Shown piece by piece: positions 22,073 through 48,972 of a DNA stretch of 64,000 nucleotides. Position 1 is the first letter of the stretch. Each line of letters starts with the position of its first letter. Position numbers and translations under genes: made by a program. Below the pieces are notes generated by a model. The model saw only the letters and a list, made by a program, of their open reading frames with translations. It was not told the DNA's origin and did no database searches. This DNA comes from Bacteroidia bacterium (GTDB taxonomy: Bacteria; Bacteroidota; Bacteroidia; Bacteroidales; GWA2-32-17): NCBI GenBank assembly GCA_016218155.1, contig JACREQ010000030.1, positions 1 to 64,000 of the forward strand, read 5' to 3'.

Positions 22073-24532
22073 ATGAAAAAAATAATAATAGTATTATTCG
22101 TTATTCTTCCATTTATCTGTTTTAGTCAGGATGTTACTTTGGATCAGCTTGAAGAGCGTGATAATCATACATATTATCTGATTTCTACTGGAGAAGTTTA
22201 TACAGGATTATGTGTAGGAAAGCATGCAAACGGACAAAAGAAATATGAAGGATCATTCAAGAAAGGAATACATGAAGGTAAATGGACTGAATATGATCAG
22301 GACGGACTTAGAATATTTGAAGCTTCTTACAAAGATGGTCAGTTAAATGGAACTGGTACATATTATTATCCCTATGGTCAGATTAAAGAACAGGGAGCAT
22401 ATAAAAACGGACGTAAGGTAGGTAAATGGATTGAGTGGGATGCTTATGGAAAAACAAGTAAGGAAAGAAATTACGAAACTGTTTATGAATGGTATAGTAA
22501 GGATAGAAAGAAATCGGAATCAACATTAAAGGATGGAAAAAAGCATGATAGTTTCAATGAGTATTATGAAAATAAAATGTTAAAACATCAGATAAATTAT
22601 AATTCAAATATTAAAAACGGAAAAGAAATTACCTGGTACGAAAGCGGAAAAAAGGAATCAGAAAAGAATTGGGTAAATGATACTTTACAAGGTAACTGGC
22701 TCGAGTACTTTGACAACGGACAAGTAAAAATCTCAGGTAAAATGTTGTCTGGCTATAATGATGGTAAATGGACAGAATATGATGCTTCCGGAAAAGTTGT
22801 TAAAGAAACAAGTTATAAAACTACAGTAAAATTTTATCCGAATGGTGAAAAGCAGGAATTAACTACTTTAGTTAATAACAAAAAGCATGGTGAGCTTCTT
22901 TGGTGGTATGATAATGGGCAAATGGAATTCAGGGAAACTTATAATGAAGGAATTGCTGATGGTTTATGGACAAGTTGGTATGAGAACGGAGAAAAGAGTA
23001 TAGAAGGAAAAATGAAAGCCGGGAAAAAAGACGGAGTCTGGACAGAATGGTATGCAAATGCAAAAAAATCATGTGAGTCAGCTTATACTGCGGGACAACT
23101 TGATGGTAAGTATGCCACATTCTATGAATCAGGGAATAAAAAAATGGAAGTGAATTATGAAAATGGCAAAAAAGTCGGTTCGCAGCTAGAATGGTATAAC
23201 AGCGGGCAGAAGTCTTTTGAAGGAATTTGTAAGGATGGTAAACTTAATGGAACAGCTACTCTTTATTATGAGAATGGTAAAATAATGCAACAGGGAAATT
23301 ATTTGAATGACAGACGTGAAGGAATTTGGAAAGCATTTGATGAAAAAGGAATGGCTTTAAAAGATATGGTGTATAAAACCGTTATTGAAAAATATCCTAA
23401 TGGAAAATTAAGTCTTGAAGGAACCTTAATGGGCGATAAACATGATGGATTATGGATATGGTATTATGAAAACGGACAAAAAAAATCGCTTGAAAGTTAT
23501 GTCAACTGTAAATTAAATGGACAGAGTAAATCCTGGTATGAAGATGGACGCGAATCATTTTCTGGTAACTATGTTAATGGTAAAAAAGACGGTTTAATTC
23601 AAAGTTGGTATCAGAATCGACAAAAAATGTCAGTCGAAACATGGGTTAACGGAGTACAGAATGGTGAATATAAAGAGTGGTATGAGAATGGTAGAATTAA
23701 AACAGAAGGCAATTTTATTGATGGCTTAAAAGATGGAGTTTTCAGAACAGTATATGAAAATGGTCAGAAGATGATGGAGATTAACTGTATCAAAGGAAAA
23801 GAAGACGGTACATATACAGAGTGGTTTCAGAATGGTCAGAAAAAAATGGAAGGTCTTTTTAAAAATGGAAACAAAGAAGGTACCTGGACTATCTGGTATG
23901 ACAATCAGCAAAAAAAATCTGAGGGCAGTTATACGGTCGATAAAAAAGATGGAAAATTCTCATCATGGTTTATTGATGGTAAATTAAGGTCTGAAGAAAC
24001 TTTTAAAGATGGATTACAAAGCGGTAAAGCTGTTTTTTGGTATGCAAATGGTAAAAAAGAATCTGAAGAATATTATTCAGCTGGTTTGAAAAGTGGCTCA
24101 AGTTTGCAGTGGTATGAAAATGGAAATCGTAAATCGGATGAAGTTTATTCTGCAGGAAAATTAAACGGACCTTTTACATATTGTGACGAAAAGGGAAAAG
24201 TGAAAGCTACAGGCTCATATGCTAACGGTAAGGAAGATGGTAGATGGATAGAATATTTTGAAAGCGGTAAAAAATCGAGTGAAGGAATGTATGCTGCTGG
24301 GGGTAAAACAGGAATTTGGGTAGAGTATTATGAATCTGGTGCAAAAGCTTGTGAAGGTGGCTATAAAACAGGTCAGAAACAAGGAATATGGACATGTTTT
24401 TATGAAAGCGGAACAAAGCAGGTTGAAGGAAAATATAACCTTAATCAGAAAGATGGTGTTTGGTTAGAATTTGACGAAGGAGGTAATAAAACAAATCAGT
24501 TTACATATAAAAACGGAGTTGAAGTTAATTAA
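22073..24532 (+). CDS. secreted MORN_2 repeat protein (33 repeats)
   Basis: Start set to the second ATG (22073), giving 819 residues and a signal peptide MKKIIIVLFVILPFICFSQ; the ATG at 22067 adds two residues. The rest is 33 back-to-back units of about 23 residues with the pattern G-x-W-x-E-W-Y-E-N-G-x-K-x-x-E-x-x-Y-x-x-G (MORN_2, as in YwqK-type proteins). Three irregular unit pairs, each with a shortened 19-residue second member, break the array into blocks of 5, 5, 8 and 15. Such proteins are thought to be extended beta scaffolds; the partner is unknown. It overlaps the convergent gene's 3' end by 8 bp. Confidence 0.9.
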   Translation: MKKIIIVLFVILPFICFSQDVTLDQLEERDNHTYYLISTGEVYTGLCVGKHANGQKKYEGSFKKGIHEGKWTEYDQDGLRIFEASYKDGQLNGTGTYYYPYGQIKEQGAYKNGRKVGKWIEWDAYGKTSKERNYETVYEWYSKDRKKSESTLKDGKKHDSFNEYYENKMLKHQINYNSNIKNGKEITWYESGKKESEKNWVNDTLQGNWLEYFDNGQVKISGKMLSGYNDGKWTEYDASGKVVKETSYKTTVKFYPNGEKQELTTLVNNKKHGELLWWYDNGQMEFRETYNEGIADGLWTSWYENGEKSIEGKMKAGKKDGVWTEWYANAKKSCESAYTAGQLDGKYATFYESGNKKMEVNYENGKKVGSQLEWYNSGQKSFEGICKDGKLNGTATLYYENGKIMQQGNYLNDRREGIWKAFDEKGMALKDMVYKTVIEKYPNGKLSLEGTLMGDKHDGLWIWYYENGQKKSLESYVNCKLNGQSKSWYEDGRESFSGNYVNGKKDGLIQSWYQNRQKMSVETWVNGVQNGEYKEWYENGRIKTEGNFIDGLKDGVFRTVYENGQKMMEINCIKGKEDGTYTEWFQNGQKKMEGLFKNGNKEGTWTIWYDNQQKKSEGSYTVDKKDGKFSSWFIDGKLRSEETFKDGLQSGKAVFWYANGKKESEEYYSAGLKSGSSLQWYENGNRKSDEVYSAGKLNGPFTYCDEKGKVKATGSYANGKEDGRWIEYFESGKKSSEGMYAAGGKTGIWVEYYESGAKACEGGYKTGQKQGIWTCFYESGTKQVEGKYNLNQKDGVWLEFDEGGNKTNQFTYKNGVEVN

Positions 24533-25364
24533 ACTTTCTTTTAATAAAATAAGGTAATTGCCTTAAACCTGCAATTAAATATAATAAATTAAATCTGTAA
24601 CAAATTTTACAGAATAAACTAATTTTAGAAAAAGGAATATTGTTTTTCTGTAAAAGCAGATGAATGGTAGAATCTTCAATAAAATAATCCTTTCTAATTT
24701 TATTCCTTTTCCATTCTTCATTAACCCAATGTATAACATGCCATTTAGATGGAATCTGAAAATCTTTTTTCAGAAGCTTTATTATCAATTTCCAGCTATC
24801 TTGATTAGATAATTCAATAATATAAATTTCAAGATTATAGTTTTTTACTTCATCCACAAGAATTTGAATAGGTCTATTCCAGTCTGTATTTTCTTCATTT
24901 ATTTCTGCAATGGCTCTTTTATAACACTGTGCCATTAATTCTGAATGTTTTGGGCATTTCATTAAGATTCCAACAAGTTTTAAATCAAGATGAGTTCTGA
25001 AAACGTATTCCTGTTCGAAATTTAATGGTTTTATGCAGGTAATATCCATATCTGTCCACCAACCACCATACTCGTATAAAAGTTTATATCTGAATATGTC
25101 AGAAAATCCTCCCAAGCTTCCCTTTCCATGTCCGTATTGGTTTTTATTCTTATATCTGAAAATTTTATTTTCTGGTATTATGGTGTTTGCATCTTTGCAA
25201 ACTACATTCTCTGGTAATATATTGTTTAGTGGTTGATATAACCATAAATGAAATGTATGTCCATTTTTAATAAAAGATTTTATGCATAGAATTTCCAGTA
25301 ATGATAGCTCTTTGCCAATCCACAATCCATTAATGATAATATTTTCTGGGGTAATTTTGGACAT
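24525..25364 (-). CDS. glycosyltransferase with DXD motif (GT32-like)
   Basis: 279 residues. The pattern KLLYEYGGWWTDMDITCIKPL carries the DxD metal/nucleotide-sugar site of the Gly_transf_sug (PF04488)/GT32 family, preceded by FIKNGHTFHLWLYQPLNN. No membrane helix is evident, so it is probably cytoplasmic or peripheral. It is the last gene of the radical SAM operon (3 bp after its neighbour). The donor sugar is unknown. Confidence 0.85.
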   Translation of the reverse strand: MSKITPENIIINGLWIGKELSLLEILCIKSFIKNGHTFHLWLYQPLNNILPENVVCKDANTIIPENKIFRYKNKNQYGHGKGSLGGFSDIFRYKLLYEYGGWWTDMDITCIKPLNFEQEYVFRTHLDLKLVGILMKCPKHSELMAQCYKRAIAEINEENTDWNRPIQILVDEVKNYNLEIYIIELSNQDSWKLIIKLLKKDFQIPSKWHVIHWVNEEWKRNKIRKDYFIEDSTIHLLLQKNNIPFSKISLFCKICYRFNLLYLIAGLRQLPYFIKRKFN

Positions 25365-25367
25365 TTA

Positions 25368-26546
25368 TTAATTATAAATTTTTTCGATACTATCCCACAA
25401 ATTCCAACCTTTAGTTCCAAATTCATGATAAACATGAATAAAGTTTGGATTTAGTAATTTGTTATTTTGTGTAATTACTATATTGTTTTGTTTAATTTCT
25501 GCTTTAATATTAAATTTATAGTAATCTGCAATAAAGTTGAATTCATGTGGTAATGTGGGGTGATTTTGTAAATTATATTTCCATACTGTAGCTATTAAAG
25601 TGCCTTGATCACGAATTTTCCATACATTGTTTTCAAATATTTTTAAAGTCATTTGATGCCATGTTTCCAAAAAATCATATGAGTCATCATTAAATAAAAA
25701 TACCCCGCCATTCCAATGTTGCCATTTGTTATCAGTAATTTTAATGTTAAAATTATTTTTTATTTCACTAATTAGATGATTGCATGTGCTTTTAGCTAAA
25801 TATGTATTGTCAGATTTTTTCCATTTAAGTTTCAATAAGTTTAGTTTGTAAATTGTTTTTTCTTTTATTTGCTTTCTGTAAAAAAACAAAAATGGAAAAA
25901 CTTCATTATTAATAAAAAATCCTTTTTTCTTTTTATCTAAAACAATATTATTTTTAATAATAAATTTAAATCCAAATAAACTTAACAACATTTTAAATAT
26001 TGAAACAATATTTTTTAATGGATTATTCTTGATATTTTCTAGTATTCCATATAATTCTCTGGTATTTGGATTGTGAAAATCAGGAGGATAATTACTGCAA
26101 TTTATAGCATTAGAAATGGCTTTCTCAAATGTGTCTTTTTCTGTAATATATTTGTATAAACAATTGCAATTTATAGCATAGGGGCTGAATTGATCTATTT
26201 TACAATGATCTGAGGCAAATGAAATGGGGGAATGGTAGTAATTAAATATGTTGTTACAGTTTTTATTTACTGAAATAACATCACTATCTAAATAACAATA
26301 AAGTATACCTTTAGGTAAAATCCGGTGAAGAGAAGTTTTTAACCAAATGCTTGCCTGATGATTATTGTAATCAACTGGAACTTTTATATCTATAATGTTA
26401 TTATGTTTTATTGGACTTTCATTACGAGAAGAATCAGTAACTACAATTATTTCATAATTTGAAAAATGTTTCAAATATGATATCGAGAAATCAAGAGTAT
26501 TAATATGTTTTTCTGCCCCACAAACAACAAATACGTAGCTGTACAT
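25368..26546 (-). CDS. nucleotide-sugar transferase-like protein
   Basis: 392 residues. It starts YVFVVCGAEKHINTLDFSISYLKHF, then has ILYCYLDSDVISV with a DxD site near residue 97, and later WNGGVFLFNDDSYDF and RDQGTLIATVWKYN, the order seen in GT-A fold GT8-like transferases. A lysine/asparagine-rich insert (about 180-250) is not explained by the family. It lies 5 bp from the transglutaminase-like gene. Probably adds a sugar in the same pathway. Confidence 0.7.
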   Translation of the reverse strand: MYSYVFVVCGAEKHINTLDFSISYLKHFSNYEIIVVTDSSRNESPIKHNNIIDIKVPVDYNNHQASIWLKTSLHRILPKGILYCYLDSDVISVNKNCNNIFNYYHSPISFASDHCKIDQFSPYAINCNCLYKYITEKDTFEKAISNAINCSNYPPDFHNPNTRELYGILENIKNNPLKNIVSIFKMLLSLFGFKFIIKNNIVLDKKKKGFFINNEVFPFLFFYRKQIKEKTIYKLNLLKLKWKKSDNTYLAKSTCNHLISEIKNNFNIKITDNKWQHWNGGVFLFNDDSYDFLETWHQMTLKIFENNVWKIRDQGTLIATVWKYNLQNHPTLPHEFNFIADYYKFNIKAEIKQNNIVITQNNKLLNPNFIHVYHEFGTKGWNLWDSIEKIYN

Positions 26547-26551: not shown

Positions 26552-28045
26552 TTATTCTTCTTTGTTAATAAATAGCAATATATATAATAATTCTTCTTCT
26601 GAAGCATTTTTAAAATCATCAAATAAAATTTGATTAGGAATATTATTAATTATAAAAAATAATTTATTATAATTATAATTGTCTTGAAGTCTATTAAAAG
26701 ATTTTTCAATTTTATTAATAATCTTATTAATATCTGTTGTATTTGCATTATTTGTACATTTATAATAATCCTTCAAAATATTAATAAAATTTTCTTTAGA
26801 AAGAGGTTTATTATTATTTAAACATGGAATATTTGAATCTAGTTTTTCATTGAGAATACAAACTCTTGAATTTTCATAAAAAAAATATTGTTTGTATAAA
26901 GCTTTAACAACAGAAATAGAGTCGGATATATTTTTATTTGTAATTTTTAGTTTTGTAGTATTTACACCTTTAATACGTATAATGTTATTTGTTTTTAGTT
27001 CTGTAATAACTGGGTTAATAAAATAATATATTTCAAGCGGTTCTTTTGATTCAATAATATTAAAATTAGTTATAAAGTATTCTAAATTAGATAAAAGGTT
27101 ATTTAATTCTGCACTATTTATTATATATTCTTTTTTGTTAATCAAGACTTTTCCTTTTCCTATTATTCCTGCTAACACTAGATTGTTATTTAAATTTCCA
27201 GTCCAATTTGAAGGGATACTAATTTTGCAAAATGCTTTATATGGAAGTTGTCTTATATTAGTTGAACTAGAGTTGTAATTTATTGGAAAATCTAAAGTTG
27301 AATAAGGAGGAAGTTCTATTGAGAAATTCGAAACTGCATCAGGTATTGTTTCTTTATAAATTAAATTGTTATCATTTTTTGATATATATAGTTTTGCTAA
27401 ATCATTTGTATATCTTAAAAAATAGTATAAATTATTTTTTTGAATTTTTAAAGGATTAGTTATTAGTCTAGGGTTATTTGATAATTCTTCCACATCTGCT
27501 ATATCATTATTCTCGTTTAAATAATAAACTTTATATGCAGGATCTAACATATGCCATTTGCCATTGTAAAATACTTCTGGAACAACATGACCATTTAAAC
27601 CCCAGATTCTGGATTTATAACCTAATTTTTCCCACAGATTGGCTAAAACTAATGCTTGTTTTCCACATAAACCAAAGCCAATTGAGTTTAGATATATTAT
27701 TGGTGATGAAATCCAATTATTATTGGTTAATGAAATATTAGAGTATGTATTGTTACAAACATATTTCCATGCATAGTAATATAAGCTATCTGTACTCTTT
27801 CCAGATAAATATCTGATTTCATTTAACATTTCACCTGTATCTGCCCACAATTTATTGTTAATATTGAATGAAAAGACTGAATTAGAATTTGTTGGGTTGT
27901 ATATTGAGATGCAATTAGATGATGGATCTTTTATGTTTATATTTTTAACAAATGTATTAACTGGAGAGTCGAGTTGAGAGTATAGTTTACCAATGTTTAA
28001 TAATAAACAGATTAAAATAAAATATTTTAATTTTAAGTATGTCAT
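26552..28045 (-). CDS. secreted transglutaminase-like protein
   Basis: 497 residues with a signal peptide (about 1-24). A transglutaminase-like cysteine protease core is visible: FGLCGKQALVLANLWEKLGY (Cys127), GLNGHVVPEVFYNGKWHMLDPAY (His153, Asp168), the Cys-His-Asp triad in order and spacing. The roughly 320 C-terminal residues are unassigned. It would act outside the cytoplasm on amide bonds, by cleavage or crosslinking. Its start overlaps the sulfotransferase stop by 1 nt, so it belongs to the same operon. Confidence 0.75.
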   Translation of the reverse strand: MTYLKLKYFILICLLLNIGKLYSQLDSPVNTFVKNINIKDPSSNCISIYNPTNSNSVFSFNINNKLWADTGEMLNEIRYLSGKSTDSLYYYAWKYVCNNTYSNISLTNNNWISSPIIYLNSIGFGLCGKQALVLANLWEKLGYKSRIWGLNGHVVPEVFYNGKWHMLDPAYKVYYLNENNDIADVEELSNNPRLITNPLKIQKNNLYYFLRYTNDLAKLYISKNDNNLIYKETIPDAVSNFSIELPPYSTLDFPINYNSSSTNIRQLPYKAFCKISIPSNWTGNLNNNLVLAGIIGKGKVLINKKEYIINSAELNNLLSNLEYFITNFNIIESKEPLEIYYFINPVITELKTNNIIRIKGVNTTKLKITNKNISDSISVVKALYKQYFFYENSRVCILNEKLDSNIPCLNNNKPLSKENFINILKDYYKCTNNANTTDINKIINKIEKSFNRLQDNYNYNKLFFIINNIPNQILFDDFKNASEEELLYILLFINKEE

Positions 28046-28929
28046 TAGTCTAAAAAATATTCTTTTTTATATGGTTGAAAGTCTGGGTTATCTCTTAAAC
28101 AATCACTATATCCTTGAAAATTATTTCTAATTTCTTTTATAGGTTCAATTATTAAAGGTTTATTTTTAACTAGTTTAGATAATGTTATGAACAAAATATT
28201 ATTCCATGATTTTGTTTTTATAGTATCAAGTATTTTTAAATGTATTCTATATCCGTATTTTTGAAATGGGCCCAATATGTATAAAGAAAAATATAAAGTA
28301 ATATTAATTATTCTGATAAATTCCATTCCTTGAGGTGTTAATGATGGGTTATTATCTTTTACATCAATATCTATATGTGAGATATTTACAAAATTTTCGA
28401 TTTTATAAATGAATTTATTCTGATTATTTTTAAGTAATTCAAATGGAATGATTAATACATTATTATTCCCAAATAAATTTATATAATATTCAATTATTTC
28501 ATTATAATTAAATGGAAGCCATTGGCTGTTTTTATTTATTTTTATTAAATTATTGAAGCTTAATATACCTCCTTCTTTTACATATTGTGAGTAATTTGCT
28601 TTTATTGCTGATTCGAAACCTCTTGTTACAATTAATATTTTTGCAGTTGGAAATAGTAAAAATAATTTTTCTGCAATTTTTTTTTGGGTGTCAAAAATAT
28701 TTGAAAATTCCTTAAAGTCATTATTGTGAGGAGTTATAAATCTGGTATCTTTAATTACAATTGTTTTATCAGAAGATGTATTATTTAAACAATCTTTAAA
28801 TTTATTAATATTATTAAATGCTACCTTACTTAAATCATAAAATCTAAAATTAGGATTATTATAAAACCAACTACCAAGAAAAGTTGAACCAGCTTTTGGA
28901 TAACCAATATGTAAAAGAATTTTACTCAT
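28045..28929 (-). CDS. PAPS-dependent sulfotransferase
   Basis: 294 residues. The 5'-phosphosulfate-binding loop is GYPKAGSTFLGSWF (residues 9-22), and the 3'-phosphate-binding segment is LIVTRGFESAIKANYSQYV near residue 105. The usual length of single-domain sulfotransferases is matched. It moves sulfate from PAPS to a hydroxyl or amine, probably a sugar, given the flanking glycosyltransferases. It follows the first radical SAM gene by 18 bp. The by-product PAP would be cleared by CysQ, encoded at 53555. Confidence 0.85.
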   Translation of the reverse strand: MSKILLHIGYPKAGSTFLGSWFYNNPNFRFYDLSKVAFNNINKFKDCLNNTSSDKTIVIKDTRFITPHNNDFKEFSNIFDTQKKIAEKLFLLFPTAKILIVTRGFESAIKANYSQYVKEGGILSFNNLIKINKNSQWLPFNYNEIIEYYINLFGNNNVLIIPFELLKNNQNKFIYKIENFVNISHIDIDVKDNNPSLTPQGMEFIRIINITLYFSLYILGPFQKYGYRIHLKILDTIKTKSWNNILFITLSKLVKNKPLIIEPIKEIRNNFQGYSDCLRDNPDFQPYKKEYFLD

Positions 28930-28947
28930 TAATATTAAGTTGATTCA

Positions 28948-30276
28948 TTAAAAATTTTTGCTTATATAATAATTAATATATTCAATATTATTTGACATTA
29001 AAATTTCTATGCTTTCTGAAGTCGGTAACGATAATAAAAATAATAAAATATTTTTTAATTGTTTTTCACTTTTTTGAATTAAGATGCTATTAATAATTGA
29101 TTTTATTTCTTCTGAATAATATTTTGTTTCGTCATTTTTAATTATGTGCTGTCTTACATTTTCTACGAAAATATTAATAAGTTCATCATTGTTTAAAATT
29201 GAATATTTTGAAAGGTATTTTTCTCTATAAATCGAAGCTTCAGCCCAAGAACCAATCTGATTTATAAATTCGATAAATCTTTTATAGTTTTCACTTTTAC
29301 CACTTATTTGTAATTTATTATAAAATGCGTGAAGTTTTTTCAAATAAAAAGAATTTTGATACCATAGTGATAAGCTGTGTGGCATTATAACTGTGTTAAA
29401 ATAGACCTTAATATTTCTTTTTTCGAAATAATTTACAAATTCTGCAATTTCATATGCATTTTGTTTTAACGGACAAACCCACACACTAAAAGATGTCCCC
29501 TTTGATTTACAGTAATTTTGAAAATAGTCAAGATTATCCATAACAATATCAAAACTGGCATTAATCCTGATTTTTTCATACGTATCTTTTCTAATTGAAT
29601 CTATTGAGAAACCTATGTCAAAATTTCCTTTTGTTAATAATTCTTTTATTCTGTTATTTAAAATAGTCCCATTTGTACTTATGTTAAATATTATTTTGGG
29701 GTTAATGCTTAACATCTTTTCAATAATTGAAAAATAAAGTGGAACTAAAAATGGCTCACCACCAATAAAATTAGCATGTGTTAAATGAGGAATAAATTCC
29801 TCAATTTCATTTATTATAGAATTATTGTATTGTGTTTTTTCTAACTGAAAATTGCATTTATTTAAGATTGAAGATGACGTATATGGATTGCACATTATAC
29901 ATTCCAAGTTGCAATTATTATCCAATTCAAATTCAATTAGGGAAGGGTAACCGTTTTTATTTATTTTTAAATGGTTATAGAATCTGGCTTTTACCGAATA
30001 AAATGCTCCATTTTCAATTTGTGACTTACATTCTGAACAGCCAAGTGACAGGTCTTTTGATGAAATACATTTTCTTAATTCGTTAACTTTTTCACTAAAC
30101 CATGCTGTTTTAATATTTGTCTCGGGATATTTTCCTAATAAAAAGTCTTTATTTGCACAACATATTTGAATATTACCATTCAGACTTAATCTTAATGCAT
30201 TAAATGGAGCTTTACACAGTGTTTTTCTGTTAAATAATGGGAGAGTAGCTAAATATTTATTTATTTGTTTTGACAT
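28948..30276 (-). CDS. radical SAM enzyme with N-terminal twitch domain (array member 1)
   Basis: 442 residues. An N-terminal twitch/SPASM-like half-domain carries Cys21 (LCKAPFN), Cys39-Cys40 and Cys80/Cys83 (GCSEC), expected to hold an auxiliary FeS cluster. The radical SAM core follows: Cys122-x3-Cys126-x2-Cys129 (CNLECIMC), FIGGEP near residue 180, and STNGT. A helical C-terminal region ends with LLSLPTSESIEIL. This is the N-twitch radical SAM architecture. Substrate unknown; no precursor peptide gene lies nearby. It is last of five tandem paralogues in transcription order. Confidence 0.88.
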   Translation of the reverse strand: MSKQINKYLATLPLFNRKTLCKAPFNALRLSLNGNIQICCANKDFLLGKYPETNIKTAWFSEKVNELRKCISSKDLSLGCSECKSQIENGAFYSVKARFYNHLKINKNGYPSLIEFELDNNCNLECIMCNPYTSSSILNKCNFQLEKTQYNNSIINEIEEFIPHLTHANFIGGEPFLVPLYFSIIEKMLSINPKIIFNISTNGTILNNRIKELLTKGNFDIGFSIDSIRKDTYEKIRINASFDIVMDNLDYFQNYCKSKGTSFSVWVCPLKQNAYEIAEFVNYFEKRNIKVYFNTVIMPHSLSLWYQNSFYLKKLHAFYNKLQISGKSENYKRFIEFINQIGSWAEASIYREKYLSKYSILNNDELINIFVENVRQHIIKNDETKYYSEEIKSIINSILIQKSEKQLKNILLFLLSLPTSESIEILMSNNIEYINYYISKNF

Positions 30277-30317
30277 TTTTAAATAAAAATCAACAAAATA
30301 TATTTATAATTACAATA

Positions 30318-31736
30318 TTAATAATATTTTAGCACTAATAACTGATTTATTATTGTTTCTTTACTTTCATTTAAAAATATAGAAAGCACAAAATCGTCAG
30401 GCAAATTAAATAATTTATCTGTTAAATCAGATGTAAGCATGTTATTATTTAACCCATTTACAATTTCCTCTATTTTATTTATAAATTCAATGCTATTATT
30501 GTGTTTTGAATAATGATTTATTATTAGTTCAATAATTTGTTCTTTATTTACAACTCTAATTTCTTTATTGATGTCTTTTTCTAATTGCTCTGCCTTATTT
30601 TTCCAATATTCCAATTTTTTAATGTAAGAAATATACTGAACATTGTTATATTTCTGATTTTTGGTTTTTAAAGGAAATGAAAAACCAGAAAGATATTGTT
30701 GTATTTTTTCTATCTCTGTAGAATGTAATGTCCATATTGCTTGGTTTTCTGGTTGAATAACTTCGCAGAAAAAAATCGTAGAATCGAGTTTGTTACAAAA
30801 ATTTATAATTTCAGGAATTTCTTCCCAGTTTTCTCTAATAATACAGGTGTTAATGTTAAAATAAGTTTTCTTTAGTTTTGTGTATTTGTTTAATTCGATA
30901 ATATTTTTCATTACCGTCTCAAATGAGCCATTTTTGCGGATTTTTTCGAAAACTTCTTTTTTCAGAGAATCAATAGAAACATTAAAAGAAAATTTTCCAT
31001 TGTTAAGAATATTTTTTATTCTTTCGTTTAAAACCGTTGCATTTGTTGAAATATAAATTGAAATATTTGGATTTATTTTGTTCATTAAATGCCAGATATC
31101 GTAATATATTTTAATTAGAAATGGTTCTCCGCCAATAAAATTTGCAACTTTTAAATGTGGAATAAATTCTTCAAGCTGTTTTACAAAATCATTACCGTAA
31201 GGGCTTTTTATTGCTGAAATATGTTCGCTCTTGTTTCTTATTGAAGATGACAATTCACCGCTGCACATTATACATTCCAAATTACAGGTGTTTTCGCAAA
31301 CAAATTCCATATATGAAGGAAATTCGCTTTTGTTAATAGGGTAATTGTCAAATTTTGTTGACTTAACATTATAAAAGCTTTTATCAGATAATGACTTTCT
31401 ACAAATACCACACATTAACGATAAATCATTTGCACTAAAATTATCTCTTAATTTCTTAAAAATATCTCCTTTCCATATTTCTTTAAGTGATTTGTTCGGA
31501 AAATATTCGTAGTCGGTGATTAAATCCCAACAGGGTCTAACTCTTCCTTTCTGGTCAAAAAACATAGAATTAAAAGGTGCCAGACAAAATAGATTTTGTG
31601 GACCAAAAGGTCTATGTTTATTGAATTCGTTCAATAGTTTGTAATCTTTGTAATTCTTTTTATTTATAAAATTATTAAGCCTGAAAATTGAATATTTTCC
31701 CCAATTATTTATAGTATTAATATTATTCTTATCCAT
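30318..31736 (-). CDS. radical SAM enzyme with N-terminal twitch domain (array member 2)
   Basis: 472 residues. Twitch cysteines: Cys51 (FCLAPFN), Cys69 (PCWDL, with Trp where other members have a second Cys) and Cys109/Cys112. Radical SAM cluster Cys151-x3-Cys155-x2-Cys158, then FIGGEP, STNAT and SIDSLKKEVFEKIRKNGSFE, shared nearly word for word with members 1, 4 and 5. It has an N-terminal extension of about 45 residues. It is 41 bp from member 1 and 2 bp from member 3. Confidence 0.88.
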   Translation of the reverse strand: MDKNNINTINNWGKYSIFRLNNFINKKNYKDYKLLNEFNKHRPFGPQNLFCLAPFNSMFFDQKGRVRPCWDLITDYEYFPNKSLKEIWKGDIFKKLRDNFSANDLSLMCGICRKSLSDKSFYNVKSTKFDNYPINKSEFPSYMEFVCENTCNLECIMCSGELSSSIRNKSEHISAIKSPYGNDFVKQLEEFIPHLKVANFIGGEPFLIKIYYDIWHLMNKINPNISIYISTNATVLNERIKNILNNGKFSFNVSIDSLKKEVFEKIRKNGSFETVMKNIIELNKYTKLKKTYFNINTCIIRENWEEIPEIINFCNKLDSTIFFCEVIQPENQAIWTLHSTEIEKIQQYLSGFSFPLKTKNQKYNNVQYISYIKKLEYWKNKAEQLEKDINKEIRVVNKEQIIELIINHYSKHNNSIEFINKIEEIVNGLNNNMLTSDLTDKLFNLPDDFVLSIFLNESKETIINQLLVLKYY

Positions 31737-31738
31737 TG

Positions 31739-33064
31739 TTATAAAGCAAGTAAATTGTCTTTAAATTCATCAATGCTAATTCTATCGGTTTCGCTAATTA
31801 AAATGTTTGCAGAAATAAACTGTAACCTAATTAATTTTGATTTTAACAAATCTTTATTTTCAATAGTTTTACAAACTTTATCAAGCTTTTCAATAAAACA
31901 ACTAATTTTTGATTCTTTTATGCTATGTTTCATCCATTCTAAACTATCTAAAAATGATTTTACTTTATTATATATTTCTTCTAATAGTTTATCGATAGAA
32001 TGATTTATATATGTTTCATATTCTTTTTCACGTTCAATAGAATCTAAATGCCAATTTAAAATATCTGAAACTAGTTTGTTGTAATTATTGATATTTGAAG
32101 CGATTATTTTATTTTTAGTTTCTTTAAAATTATATTTTGATAATATGTTATGAATTTTTAAAAGTTCTTCTTTTTTTAAATTCCAGATTGATGCATAAAA
32201 TGGTTGAACTACATTATGAAAACTAACACTTATTTTTAATTTGTTGAAATATTCAATTAAAGCTGGAATGTCTTGCCAGTTATGTCTTAATGGACAAACC
32301 GAAATGCCAAAATATGTTTTTTTTTGTTTTGAGTATTCGTAAAAGTAATTAATGTTAGTAAGAACTTTCTCCAGAGTTGCGTTTACCCTTATTTTAGCAT
32401 AATTTACAGGATTTATTGATTCTATTGAAACTCCAATATTGAACTTTCCTTTATTTAATAAAGTTTTTATTCTATTGTTTAGTATTGTGCCATTTGTTTG
32501 TAAATATATTTTACAATCAGAATTTTGTTCTAAAATATATTCCCATATCTCATAATATTTCTCGATAAGAAATGGTTCCCCACCATAAAATTTAACCTCA
32601 GATAAATGAGAAATAAATGGAGACAGTTGTTGAATAATATATTGAAAATTAAATGTTTCTTTCTGTTGTAAATTTAATTTATGTGCAATTTTATCAGAAA
32701 ATAATGACGAGCACATAACACATTCAAGATTGCAATTATTTGAGAGTTCTAATTCAATAGATTTAGGGAATTTTGCATTCTTAAATGATTTATTTGTAAA
32801 AAACGAATCTTTTTTAACCTGCTGCTTTATACTGCAATTACTGCAACTTTTTTCGTTAGTGTTTTTATGAAGTGATTTAGCAAAATCTTTTCTGCTGTAA
32901 GAGTTCCATATTTCTAAAAGAGTATTATTATTTAAATTGCCTATTTCAAAATGATGATTATAACAACATACTTTAACAGTTCCATCCTGTGAAATGTACA
33001 TGTTCAGATTAGGCAGATTGCATCTGAAATTATTTTCCACTTTATTATTTATTTTTTGATTCAT
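31739..33064 (-). CDS. radical SAM enzyme with N-terminal twitch domain (array member 3)
   Basis: 441 residues. Twitch cysteines are Cys15 (RCNLPN, diverged from the APFN of the others), Cys33-34 and Cys74/Cys77; radical SAM cluster Cys111, Cys115, Cys118 (CNLECVMC). The motif KFYGGEPFLIEKYYEIWE is closest to the separate member at 49926, so these two look like one subgroup. C-terminal helices are long and charged. Its 5' end overlaps the 3' end of member 4 by 20 bp. Confidence 0.88.
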   Translation of the reverse strand: MNQKINNKVENNFRCNLPNLNMYISQDGTVKVCCYNHHFEIGNLNNNTLLEIWNSYSRKDFAKSLHKNTNEKSCSNCSIKQQVKKDSFFTNKSFKNAKFPKSIELELSNNCNLECVMCSSLFSDKIAHKLNLQQKETFNFQYIIQQLSPFISHLSEVKFYGGEPFLIEKYYEIWEYILEQNSDCKIYLQTNGTILNNRIKTLLNKGKFNIGVSIESINPVNYAKIRVNATLEKVLTNINYFYEYSKQKKTYFGISVCPLRHNWQDIPALIEYFNKLKISVSFHNVVQPFYASIWNLKKEELLKIHNILSKYNFKETKNKIIASNINNYNKLVSDILNWHLDSIEREKEYETYINHSIDKLLEEIYNKVKSFLDSLEWMKHSIKESKISCFIEKLDKVCKTIENKDLLKSKLIRLQFISANILISETDRISIDEFKDNLLAL

Positions 33065-34427
33065 AATGAAACCTTTCTATAAATTTTTCTGGAGATCGCA
33101 TTATTTCTGCTGTAATAGTTTCGGGTACAATGGAAATGAAATGTATTAATGATGTTTTTAAATTGGCTTCTTCTATATTTTGTTTGTAAATCTCTGATAA
33201 AGTTTTTTCTATAATATTTAATGTTTCTTCTTTCTTTAAAACATCAATATTGAAATCATTTATAACTGAATTATCTAAACTTTGTTTAAAAGTTATTTTT
33301 AGGTCTTTGATATCCTTTTTAGATAACTCTGAAATTGAATTTTGATTTTTTTCGAATTTCCATATCTCTAACTGGTGAATAATTTCCTGAAAACGTTTAT
33401 TGTTATTATTTTGAATATCAGAAGCTGAGGGAAGTTCATATGATTTATATAAACTAATTAATTCATCAAATTCTTGTTCGCTTAATTGTCTTAATGATAA
33501 AAACACCGGTACCCATAGTAGTTTTGGGAAAACCTGAATATTTCTGCCAGACCAGTATTGTATCATTTCTGGTAATTCCTTGGCATTTAAAGTCATTACT
33601 ACTATTTTTATACTTAACGAATTATTTTTATTTGTTGTTAAATTATATAAATACTCAATATTCTGTAAAGTGTTATTTAAACTTGCATTTTTGCGAACTT
33701 TTTCATAAATTTCTTTATTTAATGAATCAATTGATACCGTGAAGTTAAAATTCCCATTTTCTAAAATAGACTTTATGGTTTCCGGAATAAATGAGGCATT
33801 AGTAGAAATATATAATGGTACAGACGGATTTAATTCATTAAATAATTTCCATAATTCTCTGTATATTTTAATAATAAATGGTTCTCCGCCAGTAAAAGAT
33901 GCTGATTTTAAAAATGGAATAAATGGTTTTACTTGTTCAATAAAATCATTGTTATATGGACTATTATGTTTTTCGAGATGTTCTCTGTTTGTTTGAATTG
34001 CGCTGCTATACTCGCTACTGCACATTATGCATTCGAGATTACATGTATTTTCAAGCTGAAAATCCAGTAATGCAGGCATTTTATTAACATTTTGCTTTAA
34101 ATAATTATATTTATACGGACCTGATAAATAATAATTCTTATTTTTTAGTTCATAATAGCAATTCTGGCAACCGTAAGAAAGATCAGAATCTTTTATTTTT
34201 TTCCTTAGTTTATCAAAGTTTTTTCCAAACCAGATATCTTTTAAATTGTTTTTATTTATATCGCCAATAACTGTTCCCCTATTATAATGACAAGCCATTA
34301 CTTTTCCTGTAGGAACAAATAACATATTTGTAAATGGAGCATTACACAATGGTGCTTTGATTGGAATTCCAGCTTTAAGCTTGTAATTCAATTTGTTTGA
34401 TAATGTTATTTTAAATTTATCTGGCAT
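33045..34427 (-). CDS. radical SAM enzyme with N-terminal twitch domain (array member 4)
   Basis: 460 residues. Twitch cysteines Cys28 (LCNAPF), Cys46 (ACHYN, His in place of the second Cys) and Cys87/Cys90 (GCQNC); radical SAM cluster Cys129, Cys133, Cys136; SAM-binding SFTGGEPFII and STNASF. The C-terminal tail includes ISIVPETITAEIM, matching the end motif of members 1 and 5. It starts 12 bp after member 5 and runs into member 3, implying tight co-translation. Confidence 0.88.
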   Translation of the reverse strand: MPDKFKITLSNKLNYKLKAGIPIKAPLCNAPFTNMLFVPTGKVMACHYNRGTVIGDINKNNLKDIWFGKNFDKLRKKIKDSDLSYGCQNCYYELKNKNYYLSGPYKYNYLKQNVNKMPALLDFQLENTCNLECIMCSSEYSSAIQTNREHLEKHNSPYNNDFIEQVKPFIPFLKSASFTGGEPFIIKIYRELWKLFNELNPSVPLYISTNASFIPETIKSILENGNFNFTVSIDSLNKEIYEKVRKNASLNNTLQNIEYLYNLTTNKNNSLSIKIVVMTLNAKELPEMIQYWSGRNIQVFPKLLWVPVFLSLRQLSEQEFDELISLYKSYELPSASDIQNNNNKRFQEIIHQLEIWKFEKNQNSISELSKKDIKDLKITFKQSLDNSVINDFNIDVLKKEETLNIIEKTLSEIYKQNIEEANLKTSLIHFISIVPETITAEIMRSPEKFIERFHYESKNK

Positions 34428-34439
34428 TATTTTCTGAAA

Positions 34440-35864
34440 TTAACTTTCATAAGCAAATTTAGAAGTTTGTATATATTTTTCAAGAAGCTTTTCTGAAGTA
34501 CATAATTCAGTTTCGGCCATTATTACATCAATAGGTAATCTTGAAAAGTTTTTAATTGCATTTTGCTTAATGTTTAAATCTGTTATTTTTTCAAGAACTA
34601 AGTTGTGCTTTGTTAAAAAATTATTGTAAAGTTTAATTTTGTTTTCTTCGGATAAATAAGTAGTGTTATTAATATGATTTTCAACCATAGAGAATAAATA
34701 TTGTTTTAACTTAAGTTCGTCATTACAAGAGTCAATACCTGATTTTTCAAACTCAATTGCTTCATTGTGCCAAACAATAACAGAGTTCAGAAGATTATCA
34801 AACAATTGTTTGTTACTTATACATACAGAATTAGTTGTCATATATATATCAGTATTTTTATAATATTCAATTATCTCATTTATTTGTAATGCTGACATAG
34901 TGCGTATTGCGCAATAAGAAGGAAAATCAACATTGTTAAAATATAGGCTAATCGAACGTTTGTTTAAATATGATACAATTTCAGGTATTTCATGCCAGTT
35001 TTGCTGAAGCGGGCATATGTTAACTGTAATCCACTTGTTTCTTAAAGCGGAGTAATTATAAAAATACTCAAAATTCTCAATAACTTTTTCAAATGATGCT
35101 TTTTTTCTGATATTTTCAAAATTATCTTTTTTAAAAGAATCTATAGATACTGCAAAATAGAAGTTGCCTCTTTTTAATAAATCTTTAATTCTGTCATTAA
35201 GAACTGTTCCATTAGTAATTATAATGATTTCCATTTTGGGATTTATTTCAATTATTTTTTCCCATAATGTGTAATATAATTCTATTAAAAAGGTTTCACC
35301 TCCAGAAAATGTAGCTCTTTTAGCATGCAGTAAATATGGTATAATCTGTGTTAAAAAACTTTCGCCATAAGAATCAGGGTAATTGATTTGGTTTTCACGT
35401 TGTTTACGAACTGTAGAAGAAAATTCACCTGAACACATTATACAGTTTAAATTGCACGTGTTAGATAATTCAAACTCAAGTTTTTCAGGGTATTTTAATG
35501 ATTTGTCGGTTCCAAAAAAATCGTAATCAATAGATTTAAGTAATGAATAATTTTTTTGCATCAACATCCTTTGACAAAACTGACAACCTGCAGAAAGGTC
35601 GTAATTATTCATACATGTTCTTAAATTATTATATAATGAACCATGCCATATTTCGTCAATAGATTGTTCAGGAAAAGAACCAAGCTGATAAAATCTGTTA
35701 CGACAGCAACCCAGAATTTTTCCAGCAACCGAAAATCTCATTGTATTATACGGAGCATAACAAAATGCATCTTTGTGCTTTATTTTTCTTAATGAGTTGT
35801 ATTCAGAAAAATATGAATTTCCTGTTGACTTAGTTTTAATGTTTAACCAGTTAAAGATTTTCAT
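34440..35864 (-). CDS. radical SAM enzyme with N-terminal twitch domain (array member 5)
   Basis: 474 residues, first of the tandem five in transcription order. Twitch cysteines Cys35 (FCYAPYN), Cys53-54 and Cys94/Cys97; radical SAM cluster Cys137, Cys141, Cys144 (CNLNCIMC). The SAM-binding motif reads SGGETFL where the others have GGEPF. The helical tail carries IVWHNEAIEFEK and FSRLPIDVIMAE. It overlaps the asparagine-synthetase-like stop/start by one base, so the two are translationally coupled. Confidence 0.88.
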   Translation of the reverse strand: MKIFNWLNIKTKSTGNSYFSEYNSLRKIKHKDAFCYAPYNTMRFSVAGKILGCCRNRFYQLGSFPEQSIDEIWHGSLYNNLRTCMNNYDLSAGCQFCQRMLMQKNYSLLKSIDYDFFGTDKSLKYPEKLEFELSNTCNLNCIMCSGEFSSTVRKQRENQINYPDSYGESFLTQIIPYLLHAKRATFSGGETFLIELYYTLWEKIIEINPKMEIIIITNGTVLNDRIKDLLKRGNFYFAVSIDSFKKDNFENIRKKASFEKVIENFEYFYNYSALRNKWITVNICPLQQNWHEIPEIVSYLNKRSISLYFNNVDFPSYCAIRTMSALQINEIIEYYKNTDIYMTTNSVCISNKQLFDNLLNSVIVWHNEAIEFEKSGIDSCNDELKLKQYLFSMVENHINNTTYLSEENKIKLYNNFLTKHNLVLEKITDLNIKQNAIKNFSRLPIDVIMAETELCTSEKLLEKYIQTSKFAYES

Positions 35865-37564: not shown

Positions 37565-37583
37565 AATATTAAATTTAGTATAT

Positions 37584-37591
37584 CAAATATA
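37584..37591 (-). promoter_or_regulatory. candidate -7 box (TATATTTG) for the radical SAM operon
   Basis: The minus strand reads TATATTTG about 20 bp upstream of the TTG start at 37564, in the 72-bp gap after asnB. A leader of roughly 12 nt would result. No TTTG at -33, so moderate support. Confidence 0.45.
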
Positions 37592-37636: not shown

Positions 37637-39412
37637 CTAGAACCACTTTTTATACCATTTTTCAAAAATTACAATTTTCCATAACCTCCAAAAATCTATT
37701 GAATTTATTGAGTTTTCAATAAAATTTCTGTTAATTACACCATTCTCAACTAAAATTGAGTTTTTAAGTTCGGTTTTATACCATTCAACATTTTGATAAT
37801 ACCTATCCGGACCTGTAAATCCCTGTTTTTTTCGATTAATAATTTCAGTAGGTACAAAAGGCTTTAATATTTCCTGAAGAATATATTTTTGTGTTCCTTT
37901 TTTGAAATATACTTTTTCATCAAGGTTAAACATGAATTCTACTAGTTCCAAGTCAAGAAAAGGAACTCTTGCTTCATGTGAATTTGCCATGCTGGCTCTG
38001 TCTACTTTCTGAAGTACCAGTTCAGCCATAAAAGTTTTAATATCGAGGTATTGGAATGCTTTTAAGGGACTTAGGTCATTCCTGTAATGCTGTCGATAGA
38101 ACCAGAATGGATCATCGGAAATGTAATTATGATAATTTTTTGTAAATAGTTCTTTTAATTTGTTATTATTAAATAGTCCCATTGACATTGCATTAGAATA
38201 ACCATCTATTCCATGCATTTTATTGCCGTTTAGGATATTGTAAATATTGTCTTTCTTTAATAAATTATTTCTGTTCATTAAATTATGATGCCAGGTATAT
38301 CCTCCAAATATTTCATCTGCTCCTTCACCTGATAAAACTACTTTTACATGCTTAGATGCAAGTTGACTAACTCTAAAAGTAGGAATGGTGCTAATATCAC
38401 CATTTGGTTCATCATAATTCCATGCTAGATTATCAAGTATTTGCAAGCTGTTAGCATCAATAATTTCTTTATAATGCTCGGTTTTGAATTGTTTTGCAAT
38501 TATTTCAGCATAATTGTGCTCGCTGTTATTCCAATTGTCAAAACCAATGGTAAATGTTTTTTGCTTATATTTTAATTCGTCCTGAAGTAAAACTAATGCA
38601 GAGGAATCATAGCCACCGCTAAGAAATGTGCCGACTACTACGTCACTTAATAAGTGTTTTTTTACTGATTTTAATAAAAGTTCACGCGCCTGATGAACAG
38701 CGTCATTAAAAGGGATTATTCTGTTTTCAGAATTTAGCTTCCAATATTCGTTTATAGTTGTTTTACCATTACTTTCAATTAAAATAGAGTGAGCAGGAGG
38801 GAGCTTACAAACATTTTCCCAGATTGTTCTAGGGCTTGGAATATATCGGTATGTAAAATAATCGCAAGCAGATGACCAATCAATTTTCTTTTCGTGATCT
38901 GGATTTGCTACAATTGCTTTTAATTCAGATGAAAATGTGAATAATGAAGGTGCAGATTTATAATAAAATGGTTTTATCCCAAATCTGTCACGTGCAGCAA
39001 ACATTTGTTTATTTATTTCATCATATATTGCAAAAGCAAACATCCCATCAAGCTTTGAAGGTAAATTTGTTTTCCATTCTTCCCAACCATGAACTATAAC
39101 TTCACTGTCAGAGTTAGTTTTGAAAATATGTCCTGCTTTTTCTAATTCGGTTCTTAGTTCTTTGTAATTATATATTTCTCCATTTACTACTGCGTGAACA
39201 TTGTTATTTTCATTGTGCATTGGTTGATTTGCTCTTTTATCTAAATCAATAATTGCTAACCTGGTCTGAGAAAGTCCTATATTTTTATTTTCAGAAAACC
39301 ATGAATCAGATGAATCTGGTCCACGATGAGACAAGGTGTTACGTTGTACATTAAAAATTTCAGTATTTAATGGTGAACTATTAAAATTCCACTGTCCAAA
39401 AATTCCGCACAT
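37637..39412 (-). CDS. asnB: glutamine-hydrolysing asparagine synthetase
   Basis: 591 residues with an intact N-terminal Cys2 (MCGIFGQW) and glutaminase landmarks SHRGPDSS, RLAIIDL and NGEIYNYKELR. The synthetase domain has the PP-loop SGGYDS at 265-270 and GEGADEIFGGY. The length suits the AsnB/WbpS-type enzymes that amidate amino acids or sugar acids in surface-glycan loci. Its start overlaps the GT2 stop by one base, so it belongs to the acyl-carrier operon. It could amidate a uronic acid or provide Asn; not decidable. Confidence 0.9.
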   Translation of the reverse strand: MCGIFGQWNFNSSPLNTEIFNVQRNTLSHRGPDSSDSWFSENKNIGLSQTRLAIIDLDKRANQPMHNENNNVHAVVNGEIYNYKELRTELEKAGHIFKTNSDSEVIVHGWEEWKTNLPSKLDGMFAFAIYDEINKQMFAARDRFGIKPFYYKSAPSLFTFSSELKAIVANPDHEKKIDWSSACDYFTYRYIPSPRTIWENVCKLPPAHSILIESNGKTTINEYWKLNSENRIIPFNDAVHQARELLLKSVKKHLLSDVVVGTFLSGGYDSSALVLLQDELKYKQKTFTIGFDNWNNSEHNYAEIIAKQFKTEHYKEIIDANSLQILDNLAWNYDEPNGDISTIPTFRVSQLASKHVKVVLSGEGADEIFGGYTWHHNLMNRNNLLKKDNIYNILNGNKMHGIDGYSNAMSMGLFNNNKLKELFTKNYHNYISDDPFWFYRQHYRNDLSPLKAFQYLDIKTFMAELVLQKVDRASMANSHEARVPFLDLELVEFMFNLDEKVYFKKGTQKYILQEILKPFVPTEIINRKKQGFTGPDRYYQNVEWYKTELKNSILVENGVINRNFIENSINSIDFWRLWKIVIFEKWYKKWF

Positions 39413-40371
39413 TAGCTTTTACCTGAAAATATCTGTTTAACAAAGTTAAATTTATAGTATGCACCTTCCCAAAACATTGCAATAAATAAATACCATAAAT
39501 AACCAACCATGTATTTGAAAATAATTCTGTTATTTGTTTTATTTCTTAAAATACATTCATATTCTTTGACAATGCTCTGATTGATGGTATTTAAATACTT
39601 TTTATAAAATGAATCTTTTTTGAAATATTTTAAAATAGAGATATTGTTTAACGTAAAATTTTCTGAATTTACTTTTTTGCTTAAACCTTCATTATGGTCA
39701 AGGTAAACAGACCAGCAACGATTAAAATATTTAAAATTGCCTTCACTAATTATTTTCAATTGAAAAGCCCAGCTGAACGAATAAATATTCAAATTGTAAT
39801 TATTCATAAATGCTGAAAAATCTGATTTTCTAAAAACAAGCGATGCTGTTGGTATAATGTTACGTTTTAAAAGCAAATACGGTGTAAATTCTTCTTCGTA
39901 ATGATTAAACTGACTATAATACCTGTATTTATGAAGTGATTGAAGTTTTGTTTGTTCGTTTACGTGCAGTTGTTCATTTGTTTTAATTAATGCATCATGA
40001 AAACAGCCAGAATAATTAGGATTTGTTTCTAAAAAATCTAATTGAATTTGTAGTTTTGAATGAAATGTCCAGTAATCATCAGCATCAAGCCATGCAATGT
40101 ATTTTCCTTTTGCATTTTCATACATCTGTTTTGCTCTGAAAATAGGACCTTTTGATTCAGGGAAAATGAAAAGCTTAATTACATCAGGATTTTCTTTATA
40201 ATACTTCTGAAATATTAACGAAGTTCCGTCATTACTGCCATCATCAAATAATATAATCTCAAAACTATAAGTTAATTTTTGAGAAAGAGCTCCCTTAATC
40301 GCTTTTTCAATTGTTTTCTCATGGTTATGAGCTAAAATTGCTATAGTTATTATGGGATTATTATCAGGCAT
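39412..40371 (-). CDS. family 2 glycosyltransferase
   Basis: Start set to the ATG at 40371 (319 residues); an in-frame TTG lies three codons upstream. GT-A signatures: ITIAILAHNHEKTIEKAIKGALSQ, LFDDGSNDGTS, and WLDADDYW as the metal-binding DxD. A hydrophobic stretch near the C-terminus (MVGYLWYLFIAMFWEGAYY) suggests membrane association. It overlaps the phosphopantetheinyl transferase gene by 8 bp and the asnB start by 1 bp. Donor and acceptor unknown. Confidence 0.9.
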   Translation of the reverse strand: MPDNNPIITIAILAHNHEKTIEKAIKGALSQKLTYSFEIILFDDGSNDGTSLIFQKYYKENPDVIKLFIFPESKGPIFRAKQMYENAKGKYIAWLDADDYWTFHSKLQIQLDFLETNPNYSGCFHDALIKTNEQLHVNEQTKLQSLHKYRYYSQFNHYEEEFTPYLLLKRNIIPTASLVFRKSDFSAFMNNYNLNIYSFSWAFQLKIISEGNFKYFNRCWSVYLDHNEGLSKKVNSENFTLNNISILKYFKKDSFYKKYLNTINQSIVKEYECILRNKTNNRIIFKYMVGYLWYLFIAMFWEGAYYKFNFVKQIFSGKS

Positions 40372-40951
40372 TAGTAGCAATATTTAAGTTTTTTAATTCG
40401 CTGTAAACAAGTGTTTCAAAGTCGTGAGTTATTGAAATATCAATGTTCTTTGCCTGATCTGAAATAAATGGAACTCCGTTTTTATGAAAAAAAAGCTGTT
40501 TATTATTATAGTTTAAATATTCGTTTAAGTATAAATTGTTAGAACTTCTTTTATCCGAAACATTATTTGGAAAAAAGATATTATTAATGCAATTTAATGT
40601 ATTGTAATTGTTTGATGCATTTGAAAATACAAAATCTTTATTTACTTCAGTTTTGAAATTGTAAATTTTGTTCGAATAAACAGCTTTACCGATATATTCG
40701 TTTAAATTCTCAGAAATAAATTCTATTATCTCAATTGTTTTAGGAGAAAAGGCTTTTTGATTGCCTTCTTTGCACGTTATTTTATAAATGCTTTCTTTGA
40801 TTGTCCATGCAATTATCAGGTGATTATTCAAACAAAATGAATGAAATAATTTTGATTCATTTTTAGATAATATTTTATCAGTAACACCTTTTCTATTAAA
40901 AGTATTAACATTATTTTTAAAGTACATAATGTCGTTACCAATAAAACTCAT
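40364..40951 (-). CDS. 4'-phosphopantetheinyl transferase superfamily protein
   Basis: 195 residues. The N-terminal FIGNDIMYFKN corresponds to the metal-binding GxDI site of AcpS/Sfp enzymes, and IIAWTIKESIYKI near residue 55 is the W-x-x-KE-x-x-x-K motif. It transfers 4'-phosphopantetheine from CoA to the Ser of a carrier protein. The carrier gene lies 4 bp upstream, making it the obvious partner. The C-terminal part (SITHDFETLVYSEL) matches the family's last strand pair. Confidence 0.85.
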   Translation of the reverse strand: MSFIGNDIMYFKNNVNTFNRKGVTDKILSKNESKLFHSFCLNNHLIIAWTIKESIYKITCKEGNQKAFSPKTIEIIEFISENLNEYIGKAVYSNKIYNFKTEVNKDFVFSNASNNYNTLNCINNIFFPNNVSDKRSSNNLYLNEYLNYNNKQLFFHKNGVPFISDQAKNIDISITHDFETLVYSELKNLNIATNA

Positions 40952-43745: not shown

Positions 43746-43763
43746 CATTAAGAATTTGTGTTT

Positions 43764-46807: not shown

Positions 46808-46808
46808 A

Positions 46809-47825: not shown

Positions 47826-47826
47826 G

Positions 47827-48969: not shown

Positions 48970-48972
48970 AGA

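Follow-up and report, generated by a model that had tools for sequence, protein, structure and literature searches.

Five adjacent N-twitch radical SAM genes as a probable exchangeable tailoring cassette of a bacterial surface-glycan locus

Rows of adjacent radical S-adenosylmethionine (SAM) genes have already been published in passing, in sugar loci and in phages, and the passages concerned assign them no reaction. In the relevant passage of one paper, five radical SAM genes lie side by side among rhamnan/lipopolysaccharide (LPS) genes on plasmid pBHWA1 of Brachyspira hyodysenteriae (PMC4267127). Comparable passages place radical SAM cassettes in the host recognition cluster of pelagimyophages (PMC7029224) and count 12 radical SAM genes in a T4-like marine virus genome (PMC5332604), these phages also carrying LPS genes. 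Here, we describe an array of five N-twitch radical SAM genes, in whose products an N-terminal twitch domain precedes the radical SAM core, from an uncultured Bacteroidia bacterium (assembly GCA_016218155.1, contig JACREQ010000030.1, positions 1-64,000). This whole 64,000-nucleotide stretch is the window, and the coordinates of the array refer to it. We conclude that the array is probably an exchangeable tailoring cassette of a locus for an ABC-exported cell-surface glycan, each enzyme making one radical change on a sugar.

The array comprises five head-to-tail minus-strand genes at 28948-35864, which are separated by 41, 2, and 12 bp and in one case overlap by 20 bp, as a preliminary description made from the sequence alone had reported. 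The genes are listed below with the class of the residue at the strand-5 position of the barrel, to which we return, and with their placement in the family trees. L-codes denote loci of other genomes or viruses (L195_7636 and the like being a protein in such a locus), and G-codes denote a set of 60 Bacteroidales genomes from 51 families that are related to the window genome and include it.

28948..30276, minus strand: N-twitch radical SAM 1, 442 aa, Cys class; sister of L195_7636 (G036)
30318..31736, minus strand: N-twitch radical SAM 2, 472 aa, Cys class; sister of L195_15317, 46% identity
31739..33064, minus strand: N-twitch radical SAM 3, 441 aa, Cys class; no firm place in the tree
33045..34427, minus strand: N-twitch radical SAM 4, 460 aa, Val class, without Cys at the strand-5 position; groups with L199/L045
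34440..35864, minus strand: N-twitch radical SAM 5, 474 aa, Cys class (Cys284); sister of L192_8932

The preliminary description knew of no characterized pathway with this layout; the five-gene run in the pBHWA1 sugar locus and the phage cassettes, as far as those passages go, are precedents for it. The pBHWA1 run (BHWA1_02674-02678, L206 10855-16105) resembles the array in its five adjacent radical SAM genes, twitch-type cysteines, and sugar locus. Its proteins differ in being ~335 aa long with a C-terminal twitch, which rules them out as N-twitch family members, and the genes were not recovered by tblastn with a window protein; the run is a parallel array with the opposite domain order. The published phage cassettes likewise hold multiple radical SAM genes, and N-twitch arrays themselves occur in IMG/VR contigs, as in the window, the phage members being mostly shorter, more distant in sequence, and without the C-terminal tail. 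Putative phage contigs from IMG/VR (L133, L140, L135, L149, and others) hold up to seven N-twitch genes within 15 kb, as well as numerous other radical SAM genes and, among sugar genes, NeuB and UDP-glucose dehydrogenase.

All five array proteins match Radical_SAM PF04055 at 52-62 bits against a gathering cut-off of 29.5, which places them in the radical SAM superfamily, and all match SPASM PF13186 above its gathering cut-off, at 22-48 bits, at their N-terminus. The SPASM/twitch match covers residues 15-112 and the core follows, so the reading of an N-terminal twitch ahead of a CxxxCxxC core was correct. Twitch cysteines spaced C-x17-C-x~40-C-x2-C precede the core CNLxCxMC in all five, and across 170 bacterial homologues, the four twitch and three core cysteines vary little or not at all. 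There is one four-Cys auxiliary site only, at the N-terminus, unlike the C-terminal, two-cluster layout of canonical SPASM maturases of ribosomally synthesized and post-translationally modified peptides (RiPPs). For the five proteins and a sixth N-twitch protein of the window (49926-51239), the best NCBIfam model is NF033640 "N_Twi_rSAM", which has the same domain order, itself carries no assigned function, and aligns over nearly the full length. Its curated cut-off of 170 bits was missed by the five (142.7-154.9) and by the sixth (120.5), and the array proteins have an extra helical C-terminal tail of ~100 residues; though the architecture is common to both, the array proteins should not be filed under NF033640 at these scores. 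The array is a recurrent, unexplained arrangement of twitch radical SAM enzymes, not a new enzyme category.

The five proteins are homologous and, as had been proposed, diverged enough for different roles, the 34440 protein sharing 29-33% identity with the remaining N-twitch proteins in the window. Shared phrases previously read from them (STN(G/A)T, SIDS(L/I/F)(K/N/R)K) are partly general, 31739 reading QTNGT and SIESINP and 34440 reading ITNGT, and the C-terminal LPxxxxxE motif is clear in two or three of the five and not clear in the rest. An AlphaFold2 model of the 34440 protein (predicted local distance difference test 92.9, predicted template modeling score 0.90) has a short predicted N-terminal domain, then an alternating strand-helix core, then a helical tail. 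Very long open reading frames (773-854 aa) at L194:2072-4393, L142:8705-11269, and L146:8735-11293 contain an N-twitch protein and are possible fusions.

The preliminary description took the five genes to have arisen by duplication, and this is contradicted by phylogeny. Family trees were built from 170 and from 66 rows, and the approximately unbiased (AU) test was run on the 66-row set. The five are not a clade: forcing monophyly costs 228.5 log-likelihood units (AU p 1.2e-81). In both trees, four of the five have supported relatives in the loci of other genomes, 28948 grouping with L195_7636 (in a set of 4, support 98), 30318 being sister to L195_15317 (99), 33045 grouping with L199/L045 (95), and 34440 being sister to L192_8932 (100); 31739 is unplaced in both. 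The trees and the AU test thus rule out local duplication in place, and since the five are non-monophyletic and four have supported outside relatives, the array was put together from lineages that split long before. Separately, closely related N-twitch pairs occur in two phyla, in L064 (a Delongbacteria metagenome-assembled genome [MAG]) and L044 (a Bacteroidales MAG), by horizontal transfer or binning error.

Comparison with a congener, genome G001 (locus L185), separates a conserved backbone from the N-twitch genes. Identity between the window and G001 is 88% for the acyl carrier protein (ACP), 85% for the ketosynthase (KS), 63% for the DXD glycosyltransferase (GT), 53% for GT392, 53% for AsnB, and 48% for the phosphopantetheinyl transferase (PPTase), and 34-41% for the N-twitch genes, which fall in different clades. 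The N-twitch genes of G001 form two pairs, with orthologues among those of G002 and G004 and none among the window five. This looks like the replacement of a tailoring cassette within a conserved glycan locus, as between serotypes. In L185, B12-binding radical SAM proteins (476-3590 and 16607-18121) flank the N-twitch array, which suggests C-methylation in the same pathway.

We then compared 76 genome loci with 157 N-twitch genes and 80 viral loci with 191. An immediate same-strand N-twitch sister was found for 85 of the 157 and 120 of the 191 genes, fractions that are not population estimates, as the loci were chosen by similarity to window genes. Arrays of two to five occur in many loci, with runs of three to five in L058, L044, L068, L149, and L135. 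Recurring partners in the 76 genome loci are the GT of 25368 (in 28), Wzt (20), AsnB (19), the DXD GT (17), Wzm (13), the transglutaminase-like protein (8), and KS (5), counts that are affected by the truncation of fetched loci. Neighbors of N-twitch genes in other genomes (108 scanned) include further radical SAM proteins (14), GDSL proteins (14), sulfotransferases (8), family 2 glycosyltransferases (GT2; 7), ABC-2 permeases (7), UbiA (6), B12-binding proteins (6), and AsnB (5); in viral loci, 26 of 74 neighbors are further radical SAM proteins. Locus L039 matches the window almost gene for gene, in the order KS, ACP, PPTase, GT2, AsnB, N-twitch genes, transglutaminase, GT, N-twitch genes, GT. 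Unrelated genomes thus also hold arrays, and their copy number varies, a pattern that the preliminary description had named as support for a system. Its companion rule, that an array of non-monophyletic members is incidental, fails; the array is not incidental, because arrays recur and retain the same partner genes.

Co-occurrence is perfect, in the related genomes, with the GT family of gene 25368-26546. Full-length N-twitch genes occur in 13 of the 60 related genomes (G000-G009, G035, G036, and G056), and this GT family is present in precisely those 13 and absent from the remaining 47. These 13 genomes represent 4 of the 51 families, and kinship accounts for part of the co-occurrence; a Fisher test by family on the first 41 genomes gave 2e-4. 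The GT is single-copy per genome (two in G036), and N-twitch copies number from 1 to 12. The family has an invariant DxD and no Pfam or NCBIfam match; among the matches listed for the predicted structure, nearly all are GT-A glycosyltransferases and the rest are related sugar-phosphate transferases.

The relatives of known structure include enzymes that act on sugar-like substrates. The best PDB sequence match of the family profile is BtrN (2-deoxy-scyllo-inosamine dehydrogenase, PDB 4m7s/4m7t), which acts on a sugar-like cyclitol. Both twitch and core align, with all four twitch cysteines matched, and the array twitch domain is nearest to that of BtrN; the domains come in swapped order, the twitch being C-terminal in BtrN and N-terminal in the array proteins, and the core match is weak (E 8e-4). 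A Foldseek search with the 34440 model against solved structures aligned mostly the core, with TM scores by query length of at most 0.36, and among the matches listed, no solved structure spans the whole N-twitch architecture. For the core, the top fold match is BlsE (cytosylglucuronic acid decarboxylase, PDB 7vob), which works on a glucuronic acid moiety; the cores of viperin and MoaA also match, in each case over the core only. Predicted viral structures match the model far better than solved ones, with TM scores by query of up to 0.59, so the N-twitch architecture is common to phage proteins.

We next consider the strand-5 position, where barrel strand 5 ends: the residue that immediately follows strand 279-283 in the model. 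Cys occupies this position in 120 of the 170 homologues, followed by Thr (26), Asn (19), Val (4), and Ile (1). The classes are specific to clades: Cys and non-Cys states interchange 8 times on the tree against at least 37 times in 50 shuffles. In coordinate order, the classes of the five and the sixth are C, C, C, V, C, C. One Chitinophagales-type arrangement, found in 8 loci, has three members that are C, N, and T once each; we claim no significance for these eight triplets, which are one inherited arrangement at 55-98% identity. HygY and NeoN have a C-terminal twitch, unlike the N-terminal twitch of the array proteins. These twitch epimerases offer a model for a Cys-dependent switch between epimerase and dehydrogenase on sugars: according to a title cited in PMC10991966, HygY becomes a dehydrogenase when one Cys is mutated. 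By analogy, we propose that Cys-class N-twitch proteins may be epimerases and that the Val, Asn, and Thr classes may be dehydrogenases or catalyze other reactions.

Under the proposed mechanism, a near-constant backbone comprising the ACP/ketosynthase module, glycosyltransferases, AsnB, and ABC export genes would build and export the glycan. In each array enzyme, a [4Fe-4S] cluster at CxxxCxxC would cleave SAM to give a 5'-deoxyadenosyl radical, and a second [4Fe-4S] cluster would be held in the N-terminal twitch, as in BtrN with the domain order swapped. The radical would remove a hydrogen at one position of a sugar, which may be nucleotide-linked, lipid-linked, or in the chain, and the outcome would be set by the strand-5 residue. 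In the Cys class, hydrogen would be given back from the other face, resulting in epimerization; in the Val/Asn/Thr class, an electron would pass to the twitch cluster for dehydrogenation, or another reaction would follow. Exchange of members between strains and species would change which enzymes are present and, with them, the glycan. Context gives good support to the glycan-tailoring role, and the chemistry is a proposal; we infer that a sugar is the substrate, that every enzyme has a site of its own, that the reaction splits by Cys and non-Cys, and which kind of glycan is made.

Several points weigh against this account of the array. N-twitch genes often occur singly as well, as in the cultured isolate Taishania pollutisoli CZZ-1 (L096), where the one gene lies near Wzm/Wzt and AsnB, so function does not depend on an array, and the choice of loci by similarity bears on the sister fractions given above. 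Ten of the co-occurring genomes come from one family, and in G056, the N-twitch gene and the GT lie on different contigs. That a Cys284-like residue faces the active site is inferred from its position right after the model strand, and its equivalence with the HygY Cys is proposed by analogy. Our literature search found no paper on the N-twitch family and no characterized member. Finally, with FabF and ACP genes in the window, the substrate could be an acyl chain.

This last point underlies the alternative in which the enzymes act on an acyl or lipid part from the ACP/KS/FabZ/short-chain reductase (SDR) module, or on a prenyl carrier, rather than on sugars. No backbone proteins are as conserved as the ACP and KS, UbiA genes often adjoin N-twitch genes, and alkyl chains can be substrates of radical SAM enzymes, GDGT-MAS (7tom) being among the fold matches. 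We nonetheless consider it unlikely: KS occurs in 5 of 76 loci and the GT of 25368 in 28 (with loci truncated), a Methylomagnum N-twitch gene stands with AsnB, UbiA, GTs, and ABC export genes with no KS in the portion of the locus covered, and the twitch and fold matches indicate sugar-type substrates. A role as RiPP maturases modifying a peptide is less probable still. SPASM/twitch families of known function are largely peptide maturases, whose models score 20-75 bits here, and a transglutaminase-like protein adjoins in 8 loci; however, no maturase model comes near its cut-off and the conserved neighbors are sugar genes. The 24.5-43.7 kb run, moreover, has no precursor-sized open reading frame and no unassigned gap above 80 bp, its sole small intergenic frame being the ACP.

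The preliminary description envisaged an assembly line acting on one product. This remains plausible in itself, while the evidence favors a variable surface-glycan tailoring cassette over a natural-product pathway. That the locus makes a secreted aminoglycoside-like small molecule through five sequential steps we regard as improbable, about on a par with RiPP maturation. BtrN and BlsE come from aminoglycoside-type and nucleoside antibiotic pathways, and AsnB-like enzymes are present in natural-product clusters; against this, Wzm- and Wzt-type exporters recur (13 and 20 of the 76 loci), the backbone is kept and the cassette changed between congeners, which is typical of surface antigens, and phage-borne relatives sit among sugar genes. 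That the five were recently amplified in tandem for dosage and have no separate roles would fit the common architecture and adjacency and is hardly credible given the non-monophyly, ~30% identity, and different residue classes; it is rejected by the tree.

If the tailoring-cassette reading is right, radical chemistry on surface sugars would generate antigen diversity widely in bacteria and phages and would not be an antibiotic-pathway rarity, and residue classes predict which members epimerize and which oxidize. A broader idea, which we hold only tentatively, is that N-twitch arrays might perform combinatorial editing of surface glycans, complete or still growing, at unactivated C-H positions, that the Cys, Asn, Thr, and Val classes might encode different radical reactions, and that phages might carry matching sets to alter the host surface or their own receptor interaction. 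If true, this would be a previously unrecognized route to surface-antigen diversity.

The array sits in a run of 17 minus-strand genes (24525-43696), none of them more than 72 bp from the next, in which the SDR, FabZ-like, FabF-like KS, ACP, PPTase, GT2, AsnB, and AsnB-like genes precede the five enzymes, and sulfotransferase, transglutaminase-like, and two GT genes follow. The AsnB-like, sulfotransferase, and glycosyltransferase neighbors named in the preliminary description are real. The features surrounding the array are as follows.

49926..51239, minus strand: sixth N-twitch radical SAM; separate clade with L193, L202, and L203; adjoins the Wzm/Wzt genes
45102..49779, minus strand: PglD-type acyltransferase, DegT aminotransferase, epimerase/dehydratase, Wzt-like ATPase, Wzm-like permease
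43758..44870, plus strand: seventh radical SAM, C-terminal SPASM type; outside the array, divergent from the SDR-FabZ-KS-ACP module
42914..43696, minus strand: short-chain reductase (FabL/FabG-like)
42472..42912, minus strand: FabZ-like dehydratase
41195..42475, minus strand: FabF-like ketosynthase
40956..41198, minus strand: acyl carrier protein, 80 aa
40364..40951, minus strand: phosphopantetheinyl transferase
39412..40380, minus strand: family 2 glycosyltransferase
37637..39412, minus strand: AsnB, glutamine-hydrolyzing amidotransferase, 259 bits
35864..37564, minus strand: AsnB-like protein with GATase_7 and a degenerate Asn_synthase domain; TTG start, Cys not N-terminal
28045..28929, minus strand: sulfotransferase, 23.5 bits (cut-off 22)
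26552..28045, minus strand: transglutaminase-like protein, 497 aa; probable signal peptide (probably secreted)
25368..26546, minus strand: GT-A-fold glycosyltransferase that co-occurs with N-twitch genes
24525..25364, minus strand: DXD glycosyltransferase (Gly_transf_sug / Caps_synth)

The Wzm/Wzt export pair (47827-49779), glycosyltransferases, and sugar-modifying genes give the window the gene content of an ABC-exported surface polysaccharide locus. The sixth gene had been named alongside the array, and it proved to be a real N-twitch radical SAM gene that phylogeny puts in a different clade. Glutaminase activity of the AsnB-like protein is doubtful from its sequence, because the Cys expected at position 2 lies several residues past the TTG start. 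The 497-aa protein has no database match itself and no PDB match, and two of its homologues match Transglut_core weakly. No unassigned small open reading frame was found between genes of the run, and a promoter scan gave sites no more numerous than in shuffles. GC content is 24-26% across the array and 29-33% over most of the flanks; low GC is common in surface-glycan loci. A gene related to the seventh radical SAM gene adjoins the same SDR-FabZ-KS-ACP module in L076. An 821-aa MORN-repeat protein (22067-24532) is convergent with the end of the operon, and weaker MORN matches lie two genes upstream of the relatives of the sixth gene in L202 and L203.

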